A DNA stretch of 34,145 nucleotides from Actinomycetota bacterium. GTDB lineage: Bacteria > Actinomycetota > Actinomycetes > S36-B12 > UBA5976. Below are positions 28,237 to 31,735 of this stretch, in pieces. Every line of letters starts with the position of its first letter. The stretch's first letter is position 1. The DNA lies in assembly GCA_016870575.1 (NCBI GenBank), contig VGBH01000014.1, forward strand, positions 1 to 34,145, in the 5' to 3' direction. Both the position numbers and the translations under genes were made by a program. The notes beneath the pieces were generated by a model. It made no database searches, had not been told where the DNA came from, and saw only the letters and a program-made list of their open reading frames with translations.

Positions 28237-29843
28237 TGGGGCATATTGATGCAACTGGAATAACAATGATTTTGCCAGATGGCAGATTGTTGTTAGATGA
28301 AGTTTCATTTCGGGTTGGCGATGGTGCACACGCTGCGATGGTTGGTCCAAATGGAGCTGGCAAGACAACATTAATGCGAATCATCGCTGGCGATGTTGAA
28401 CCTTTTGCCGGATCAGTTGCACAATCTGGTGGACTGGGCGTGATGCGGCAATTCATTGGCGGAATTAGAGATGAAACCACAATTCGAGATTTATTACTTT
28501 CCCTTGCTCCACCAAGAATTAAAACTGCCGCGGAAAACTATCGAGCTGCAGAAGAGAAGTTGACGCAGCAACCAGAGAGTGAAAAAGTTCAAATGCGATT
28601 TGCGCAAGCAATTTCAGATTGGGGCGATGCTGGTGGCTATGAGATGGATGTACTTTGGGATATCTGCACAATGCAAGCAATTAACATTCCATTTTCAGAG
28701 TGCCAGAATCGTTTAGTAAACACCCTCTCTGGTGGGCAACAAAAGCGTCTTGCACTCGAAGTATTACTGCGCGGTCCGGATGAAGTGTTAATGTTGGATG
28801 AGCCAGATAACTATTTGGATGTGCCTGGCAAACTTTGGCTGGAAGAGCAGATAAGAAATTCTGTTAAAACTATTTTATTGATTTCACATGATCGAGCATT
28901 ACTTAATGCTGTCGCTGATCGAATTATCACGGTTGAAGATGGCAGAGTTTGGGTTCATGGCGGCTCCTTCGCTACTTATCATGATGCTAGAAAAGCCAGA
29001 TACGAGAGACAAGAAGAGATACTTAAGCGCTGGACCGAGGAACACGAACGACTAAAGGAGTTAGTTCGAACCTTGCAGGGACAGGCAAAATCCTCACCAG
29101 ATATGGCAAGTAAATATCGCGCAATGCAAACTAGGTTGCGTAAGTTTGAAGAAGCTGGCGCACCTGAAGCACCGCCACAAGATCAGAACATCAAAATGAA
29201 TCTTCGTGGCTCACGAACTGGGGTGCGAGTTATAACTTGCGAACAAACCGAGATAACAGGATTGCTGAAACCATTTGATTTAGAAATATTTTTTGGTGAC
29301 CGATTGGCTGTGCTAGGTCCTAATGGAGCTGGTAAATCACATCTGCTTAGGCTTTTTGCTGAAACTGAAGCAGATGAAATAAAGGTTGGAAAGCCATGGA
29401 GTGGCAAGAAGAAGATTGGTGCGAGAGTTGTGCCTGGGCATTTTGCGCAAACACATGCTCATCCAGAATGGGTCAATCGAACCCCAATTGAAATTCTTAA
29501 TGATGTAAAGCCAATGTTGTTGAATGAATCTATTGGTATTTTGCGAAAATACGAATTGAGCAAACAGTCAGATCAGAAGTTTCAGACATTATCCGGTGGC
29601 CAACAAGCACGACTGCAAATCTTGGTACTGGAATTAGCTGGCTGTAATTTACTACTCCTAGATGAGCCAACAGATAACTTAGATCTAGCATCCGCTGAGG
29701 CTTTGCAAGATGCGTTAGATGCATTTCAAGGTACCGTGATTGCAGTTACTCATGATCGCTGGTTTGCTGAGTCATTTGATCGATATGTATATGTCGGTGC
29801 TGATGGCATAGTCCGAGAGACAACAACACCAGTTTGGGCATAA
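28236..29843 (+). CDS. ABC-F family ATPase (ribosome-associated type, two ABC domains, no transmembrane domains)
   Basis: Two Walker A (GPNGAGKTT, GPNGAGKSH), two LSGGQQ signatures, DEPDNYLD and DEPTDNLD Walker B; basic interdomain linker; GTG start overlapping the truA stop. Confidence 0.93.
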   Translation: MGHIDATGITMILPDGRLLLDEVSFRVGDGAHAAMVGPNGAGKTTLMRIIAGDVEPFAGSVAQSGGLGVMRQFIGGIRDETTIRDLLLSLAPPRIKTAAENYRAAEEKLTQQPESEKVQMRFAQAISDWGDAGGYEMDVLWDICTMQAINIPFSECQNRLVNTLSGGQQKRLALEVLLRGPDEVLMLDEPDNYLDVPGKLWLEEQIRNSVKTILLISHDRALLNAVADRIITVEDGRVWVHGGSFATYHDARKARYERQEEILKRWTEEHERLKELVRTLQGQAKSSPDMASKYRAMQTRLRKFEEAGAPEAPPQDQNIKMNLRGSRTGVRVITCEQTEITGLLKPFDLEIFFGDRLAVLGPNGAGKSHLLRLFAETEADEIKVGKPWSGKKKIGARVVPGHFAQTHAHPEWVNRTPIEILNDVKPMLLNESIGILRKYELSKQSDQKFQTLSGGQQARLQILVLELAGCNLLLLDEPTDNLDLASAEALQDALDAFQGTVIAVTHDRWFAESFDRYVYVGADGIVRETTTPVWA

Positions 29844-29893
29844 TCAAACCAACTATTTGTAAAGATACGTTGCATACAGCAATTAGATATTGA

Positions 29894-29931
29894 CGTGGCA
29901 CTAAATTTAAGTAAGACTTATCTTTGCCACG
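29894..29931. promoter_or_regulatory. Two-tier hairpin between the ABC-F gene and the accessory cassette
   Basis: CGTGGCA-ctaaatt-TAAGT-aag-ACTTA-tctt-TGCCACG. Confidence 0.65.
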
Positions 29932-29963
29932 CTTAAATGCGATATACAGAATTGAGAAATTAG

Positions 29964-30821
29964 ATGCATTCACAAACAAATCAGATTGCTAAATTGTCCA
30001 GATTTGATCCAATGCCCCGCATCATTACCTTTGATGATTTCGATTATGGGTTTTGTGGTTGGGGACAATTAGTTGGTAATTATGAGCAGTCTTTAGATGC
30101 GATGAATCCAAGTTATCAACAGCACACTCATCCGCAACTTTCAAATTTGTCACATTGGGATAGTGGTTCTCATAGTAGCTGGGACGGCACATATGCGCTC
30201 AAAATACAAACGCGTCCAGTTGCTGGTGCTCGTAATGTTTCAGTTAAACGATTAACTTTTAGAAAAGCAGGGCCGATTAGACTTGAGTTGTATTTTACTT
30301 TCAAACCAGAAGCAACCGAACCAAGATTGCTCGAAACTGATGTTCGCTCCGTTGGTTTTTTATTTGACCTGCAAGACCCAGATGAGGGTGGTAACCGAGT
30401 TATGCCGCACATTCGTTTTCTAAATGCGGAAAATGGCGAACACGTACAAAAGTGGCAGTTTAAGCGTAAATCACCGCCAGTTACGCCAGTAGGTGAGGAA
30501 GGAAAAACAATAACTCATGACCATCTGGCACCAAATGATTGGGAAGATTTGCCAAATGGACATCAGAAACTTTGTTACAATGAAATTCCAACTAAAGTGA
30601 ATTGGCATTACCTTCGATTTGACTTTGATTTAGAGAATATGCGGATGTTGGAAATGCAATGCAACAATCGACTTTTTGATCTTAGCCAGATTGATTCTAT
30701 GGTAATGCCTGCAATGAAAAATCTTTGGTGTATGTTGAATATGGGGTTTTTTACTGAAACGGATACTAATAAACGTGCCCTGTATTACATAGATTCAGTT
30801 TGTTTGTCGGGTGATTTCTAA
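29964..30821 (+). CDS. Uncharacterised 285 aa protein, probably a beta-sandwich/jelly-roll domain, no apparent signal peptide
   Basis: Uninterrupted 285 aa ORF; RIITFDDFDYGFCGWGQLVGN...WDGTYALKIQTRP...GPIRLELYFTFKPEA...WHYLRFDFDLENMRMLEMQCNNRLFDLS pattern; family not verifiable here. Confidence 0.85.
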   Translation: MHSQTNQIAKLSRFDPMPRIITFDDFDYGFCGWGQLVGNYEQSLDAMNPSYQQHTHPQLSNLSHWDSGSHSSWDGTYALKIQTRPVAGARNVSVKRLTFRKAGPIRLELYFTFKPEATEPRLLETDVRSVGFLFDLQDPDEGGNRVMPHIRFLNAENGEHVQKWQFKRKSPPVTPVGEEGKTITHDHLAPNDWEDLPNGHQKLCYNEIPTKVNWHYLRFDFDLENMRMLEMQCNNRLFDLSQIDSMVMPAMKNLWCMLNMGFFTETDTNKRALYYIDSVCLSGDF

Positions 30822-31160
30822 ATGCTCCCGTTAAGTATTACCGCGGTTGTTGCAAGAAATGAGTTATGGCAGAACCAAGTAAGTTCGGAACCTTATGAGT
30901 GCGGCTGGGCAAAAGAAGCAATTGTTTACCTTCGCGCTTTAAAGCACCCTGTGCGAACGGAAAATGTACGTGCCCGAATTGAATATTCACCCGACGGTAT
31001 CCGATGGGTTGATTCGGGTCTGGATTTTGCCCTACCTACTCAGGCCGATCAGATCTCCTGGATTCCAGTAAATCATTTCGGCAATTGGCTCAGGGTAGCC
31101 GTGGACTTACCCGATGGAGCGGCCATCACGGTGCTGGTTTCCATCAATTTAAAGGCTTAG
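30822..31160 (+). CDS. Uncharacterised 112 aa protein, probably an all-beta domain, partner of the preceding gene
   Basis: ATG immediately follows the TAA of the upstream gene; MLPLSITAVVARNELWQNQVSSEPYECGWAKEAIVYLRALK...ARIEYSPDGIRWVDSG...FGNWLRVAVDLPDGAAITVLVSINLKA. Confidence 0.82.
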   Translation: MLPLSITAVVARNELWQNQVSSEPYECGWAKEAIVYLRALKHPVRTENVRARIEYSPDGIRWVDSGLDFALPTQADQISWIPVNHFGNWLRVAVDLPDGAAITVLVSINLKA

Positions 31161-31182
31161 TTGACCCATTAGCTCTAAGCCT
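31153..31182 (+). promoter_or_regulatory. Hairpin at the 3' end of the accessory cassette, overlapping its stop codon
   Basis: AGGCTTAG-ttgacccattagct-CTAAGCCT perfect 8 bp stem; no U-tract. Confidence 0.6.
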
Positions 31183-31233
31183 GCTCCAGCGCAGCCCCCA
31201 AGCACTAAGCCCTTCTGCCACAAGGGTATTCTG

Positions 31234-31291: not shown

Positions 31292-31735
31292 GTGCGCACA
31301 TTCAGTCCCCAAGCAGATTCGGTTACCCGGAACTGGTACGTAATTGACGCCAATGATGTTGTACTTGGACGTTTAGCAGTTCAGGCCGCTACTTTGCTTC
31401 GAGGTAAACACAAACCAATATACGCGCCTCATGTTGACACTGGCGATTTTGTCATCATTATTAATGCAGAGAAAGTTGCACTTACTGGCTCTAAGTTAAC
31501 GCAGAAGCGCGATTATCGTCACTCTGGTTTCCCAGGTGGCCTGCGCTCAACTGATTACGTCAGTTTGCTGAAGCAAAACCCAGTTCGAGCAATTGAGAAA
31601 GCGGTGCACGGAATGTTGCCGCACAACAAATTAGGTCGAGCAGTTGGGACGAAACTTAAAGTTTATGCTGGACCGAATCACCCGCATGCGGCCCAGAATC
31701 CAATTCCATTTGAGATTAAGCAGATTGCGCAGTAG
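31292..31735 (+). CDS. rplM: 50S ribosomal protein L13
   Basis: [62 protein letters not shown]. Confidence 0.98.

Follow-up and report, generated by a model that had tools for sequence, protein, structure and literature searches.

A DUF6772 gene and its constant downstream partner, inserted beside rplM in an actinobacterium, as a candidate two-subunit enzyme of acidic-sugar catabolism

Gene content and insertion site of the cassette

The window analysed here is the whole of contig C14 (34,145 bases) from a 1.25-Mb genome that is 92% complete and, by its gene content and relatives, actinobacterial. On its forward strand, ORF A (positions 29964 to 30821, 285 amino acids) is followed by ORF B (30822 to 31160, 112 amino acids), and the TAA of A directly abuts the ATG of B. 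The cassette is bounded by an ABC-F gene that ends at 29843 and by rplM, which starts at 31292; glmM and the start of glmS are found further downstream. An earlier, sequence-only reading had described two ORFs with zero spacing in a housekeeping cluster, and the sequence and the gene list confirmed this. Judged by sequence comparison, A and B are genuine genes and not chance ORFs, because A matches a Pfam family over its length (see below) and B is 66% identical to a homologue that also lies beside A, in the alphaproteobacterial metagenome-assembled genome (MAG) L010.

In a genome of the same genus (rplM 93% identical), the stop codon of the ABC-F gene is followed by rplM within approximately 107 nt, and neither A nor B is present; the cassette region is therefore an insertion. 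Its upstream part (29844 to 29963, forward strand) is an A+T-rich leader with a GC content of 33% that is missing from the empty site. Its downstream end (31161 to 31230, forward strand) precedes the rplM leader TATTCTGCTCYACTGGACTT, which the window shares with the same-genus genome L091, and was placed by eye in this comparison, so that the boundary is approximate. Hairpins had been proposed on both sides of the cassette. The upstream one (about 29892 to 29935) was upheld by RNA folding (−13.2 kcal/mol, z −3.3), while the downstream one was within chance expectation (z −1.2). Neither is a consensus terminator, the upstream hairpin having no T-run; a terminator scan found no terminators at the cassette ends, and an Rfam search of the flanks returned nothing of note. 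We also carried out the proposed comparison of codon usage and GC content with the flanks. The GC content at third codon positions (GC3) was 0.32 for A and 0.47 for B, against approximately 0.24 to 0.43 for the flanks. Since A and its flanks share GC3, a chimeric contig appears unlikely.

Families, predicted folds, and conserved residues

ORF A belongs to DUF6772 (PF20562), as the sequence-only reading had guessed: it matched positions 9 to 284 of 284 with an E value of 1.3e-125 and 418.8 bits, exceeding the curated cut-off of 27 over the full model. DUF6772 was the sole Pfam entry for A at E values up to 10, and no signal peptide was seen on A. An NCBIfam search named neither A nor B, a PDB sequence search gave no significant match, the literature library searched contained no paper on DUF6772 or DUF6385, and no characterised activity was found among the homologues.

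The AlphaFold2 (AF2) model of A (pLDDT 76, pTM 0.80) is nearly all-beta. Foldseek (2e-6) and VIA comparisons (Z scores of 13 to 14 over 173 to 193 residues, rmsd 3.0 to 4.2) both matched it to legume and L-type lectins; further matches were the alginate lyase Aly36B, beta-glucanases of bacteria, and YesU. The model thus predicts that A is a jelly roll of the ConA-like lectin/glucanase superfamily, and the jelly-roll or LamG-like look previously ascribed to A was borne out by the proposed AlphaFold and Foldseek analysis (ConA/legume-lectin type, Z about 14). Because many families tie in Z, this fold does not choose a function.

ORF B matched DUF6385 (PF19912) weakly over residues 47 to 98 with 19.6 bits, below the curated cut-off of 26.8. 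A weak match to this family recurred in 30 of 30 B homologues, and B is therefore likely to be a distant relative of DUF6385 rather than a member. Its AF2 model (pLDDT 96) is a small jelly roll with fold matches to XepA/YomS (Z about 11), which supports the earlier description of the smaller protein as an all-beta sandwich.

An alignment of 30 A sequences contained 91 invariant columns, many of them charged or aromatic (they are rich in R/K/E/D/N/H/W/Y), a pattern that would suit an enzyme. Many of the invariant charged residues persist in a Nonomuraea homologue that is only 36% identical. The statement that the proteins have no recognisable catalytic motifs holds for known motifs, but it passes over these columns in A. 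Two loops of A (residues 36 to 46 and 66 to 74) are poorly predicted yet have conservation values of 0.84 and 0.77, compared with 0.80 elsewhere, and may become ordered only with B or a ligand.

Pairing, operon context, and horizontal transfer

To survey the homologues, we scanned 84,980 species, which gave 351 relatives, and used the best 80 of these together with 7 loci from a plasmid collection. At each of the 87 loci A is immediately followed by B, and in 66 the genes overlap by 1 nt. A whole-genome search with B found exactly one copy in each of 12 genomes. Across 385 alphaproteobacterial genomes, A and B occurred in the same 3 genomes and were adjacent there; the sampling had been centred on at least one of the 3, and the rest resemble loci of the set, so this sample is not fully independent. 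The distant Nonomuraea homologue likewise has B (L009, 9956 to 12278), and its pair is followed by a putative LacI-type regulator gene and not by the usual sugar-acid operon. In the window, A and B are adjacent, on the same strand, and coupled. The suspicion that the two genes form a fixed pair was therefore well founded; the stoichiometric complex that the earlier reading drew from the pairing is putative.

Gene context was counted at 71 loci with enough flanking sequence, drawn from the same best 80 of 351 relatives plus 7 plasmid-collection loci, and presence was called by 30 to 40% identity to reference genes. Near the pair we found a CUT1-type sugar ABC permease and a solute-binding protein (SBP), each at 69 of the 71 loci, an MR/MLE enolase resembling sugar-acid dehydratases (68/71), a FadR regulator (61/71), and an SDR (56/71). 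In proteobacteria the pair thus almost always belongs to an operon for the import and breakdown of acidic sugars. Over all 87 loci (best 80 of 351 plus 7 plasmid), A lies immediately 3' of either the permease gene (53 loci) or the MR/MLE gene (27 loci). The ABC components belong to the Ugp/Mal (CUT1) class. For the MR/MLE proteins, the top-scoring models were those of galactonate, arabinonate, and talarate/galactarate dehydratases, with scores below the equivalog cut-offs. Three layouts recurred: a Bosea/Chelatococcus type, a Rhizobium type with UgpC and sometimes SMP-30, and a Microvirga/L010 type with RpiR, PALP, and AstE-like genes. The last represents a second neighbourhood class (L010, 2670 to 8226; L023, 2951 to 6608) with RpiR, a PALP enzyme, and an AstE/AspA-type deacylase, plus a RidA-like protein in L023. 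This content does not fit a plain uronate pathway and suggests that the substrate in those genomes carries an amino or N-acyl group.

The most informative locus is a different cluster, which surrounds the pair in the alphaproteobacterial MAG L052 (2310 to 14885). It resembles a polysaccharide utilisation locus (PUL). Besides A and B, it encodes a TonB receptor, a PL8 lyase whose nearest relatives are xanthan lyases, an MFS protein, SMP-30, an SDR, IclR, and a GDSL hydrolase, together with a D-mannonate dehydratase (ManD) scoring above its equivalog cut-off. In L052, A and B lie between SMP-30 and the SDR. This gene content points to uronate-derived substrates, at least at this locus. Loci L141 and L142 were listed with L052 for the PUL-like cluster.

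The window copy shares the whole-length DUF6772 match but differs from these relatives in its actinobacterial host and in lying outside a sugar operon: no set of ABC importer, SBP, MR/MLE, and SDR genes occurs within 9 kb, and housekeeping genes stand there instead. A sugar-related role had been suggested from the nearby glmM and glmS. The link to sugars was supported by the sugar-acid operons around the homologues, but glmM and glmS were not a valid reason for it, as their position is housekeeping synteny. We rejected them as functional partners, since L092, a cassette-free genome of the same genus, also has rpsI and glmM after rplM.

A search for the DUF6772 family found it in 1 of 148 relatives and in 1 of 396 members of the phylum, each time in the genome of the window itself. 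Maximum-likelihood analysis of 88 A proteins placed the copy from the window with those of the alphaproteobacterial MAGs L010 and L011 (support 99/95), within proteobacterial diversity; the terminal branch of the window copy is long (0.57), which makes the exact placement less sure. Absence from the other 147 relatives, the empty site in the same genus, and nesting within Proteobacteria together show that the pair was acquired horizontally. A phage origin was rejected, as relatives were absent from viral contigs and phage records and there was no PHROG match.

Compared with its L010 homologue, A is 74% identical in amino acids but only 62% in nucleotides (dN 0.20, dS saturated), and its GC3 is host-like, while donor-like loci have a GC content of about 70%. 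These values indicate that A has spent some time in low-GC hosts under purifying selection; ORF B is less ameliorated. Of the columns that do not vary among the 29 other A proteins, one is changed in the window (D to N235); no otherwise invariant column of B is changed.

Candidate function of the pair

From the family, the predicted single-chain folds, the pairing, the homologue operons, the transfer, and the retention of conserved residues, all of which are established, we infer a complex, catalysis, a substrate class, and host partners. The reading that we prefer, and to which we assign about an even chance of being right, is that A and B form a cytoplasmic two-subunit enzyme that acts early in acidic-sugar catabolism and came from an alphaproteobacterium. 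The ConA-like jelly roll of A would probably hold the active site, and the small jelly roll of B would complete or close it. The substrate would be an imported acidic sugar, namely a uronate, an aldonate, or a glycoside of one, and the pair would act between the CUT1-type ABC importer and the SDR and MR/MLE-type dehydratase, whose steps would lead to 2-keto-3-deoxy sugar acids. The donor of the transferred pair would be an alphaproteobacterium like the MAGs L010 and L011. In the actinobacterium, at its site next to rplM, the pair would probably supply substrate to sugar-acid enzymes that the host already has. Against this reading, the enzymes beside the pair vary among the loci, and those of L010 and L023 depart from a plain uronate pathway.

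The SBP and the PALP enzyme of L010 and the AstE family were sought in the host genome (92% complete) and not found, the two protein searches having no positive control. The host's own MR/MLE enzymes share only about 27% identity with those of the operons. At one locus (L120, contig C33), an MR/MLE gene adjoins genes for Gfo/Idh, an SDR, and a rhaM-type mutarotase, and at another (L122, contig C3), an MR/MLE gene accompanies genes for SMP-30 and an aldose-epimerase-like protein. As a guess, these loci could take the product of the pair.

A somewhat unlikely alternative, in our judgement, is that A and B are no enzyme but bind carbohydrate in the cytoplasm. As a lectin-like module, the pair would sense or carry the imported sugar and tune the operon's regulator, transporter, or enzymes. 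ConA-like folds serve binders as often as enzymes, and the best matches of A are L-type and legume lectins, which counts against an enzyme. The position of A directly 3' of the permease gene at 53 loci speaks for the binding role. YesU (PDB 1oq1) has a ConA/galectin-like fold like that of A (Z 13.1, 188 residues, rmsd 3.6, 10% identity in the alignment), and its gene, in a further likeness, is clustered with other saccharide-use genes and an ABC transporter; we know of no B-like partner of YesU. YesU of B. subtilis itself has been described as a glycan binder (PMC6120924), which favours the binding role. Against that role, the invariant columns of A go beyond the usual needs of a simple binder, and the pair persisted alone, without its transporter or neighbouring enzymes. 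Conservation of charged and aromatic residues, the logic of the operons, and the lone survival of the pair favour, but do not prove, an enzyme over a binder.

We consider it improbable that the pair cleaves glycosides by a 3-keto-glycoside or beta-elimination route, in function like DUF1080 proteins or the two-subunit C-glycoside eliminases; the keto sugar would then be formed or reduced by the SDR. DUF1080 proteins have a ConA-like fold, and SDR genes are frequent at the flanked loci, as counted above, but known 3-dehydrogenases are, to our knowledge, usually not of the SDR type. Neither A nor B matches PF06439 or known eliminase families in Pfam, so that A falls outside the DUF1080 3-keto-disaccharide hydrolases; the described DUF1080 example is probably periplasmic, whereas A has no signal peptide. 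A further likeness lies in context, as DUF1080 proteins are proposed 3-ketoglycoside hydrolases found beside dehydrogenases in sugar-catabolism clusters (PMC9007349). Similarly, C-glycoside eliminases of the PuCGE type combine a large and a small subunit, as A and B would, and need the second subunit to form part of the substrate pocket (PMC10628242), but their large subunit is a metal-binding TIM barrel and A is predicted to be a nearly all-beta jelly roll, so that A does not belong with them.

That the pair is a functionless passenger not yet lost after transfer is very improbable: its cognate transporter and enzymes were not found in the host and it is missing from all relatives examined, but its DNA has drifted far from the donor-like loci while the protein was held, with the single change at an invariant column of A and none in B, in a genome of only 1.25 Mb.

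DUF6772 was already known as a family with no known function. Our analysis adds an obligatory partner, an operon, and the movement of the pair, by itself, from one phylum to another. That it entered a cluster of ribosomal-protein genes in an actinobacterium on its own suggests that the functional unit is the pair rather than the operon. It is possible, though doubtful, that A and B represent a class of two-subunit jelly-roll enzymes not described before, which would supply a missing acidic-sugar step, be portable across phyla, and extend the substrates of a streamlined genome without the transporter of the operon. The fixed partner, the MR/MLE operon, and the L052 cluster with its PL8 lyase and ManD make DUF6772 a testable acidic-sugar enzyme candidate, with homologues in the culturable genera Bosea, Chelatococcus, and Rhizobium.
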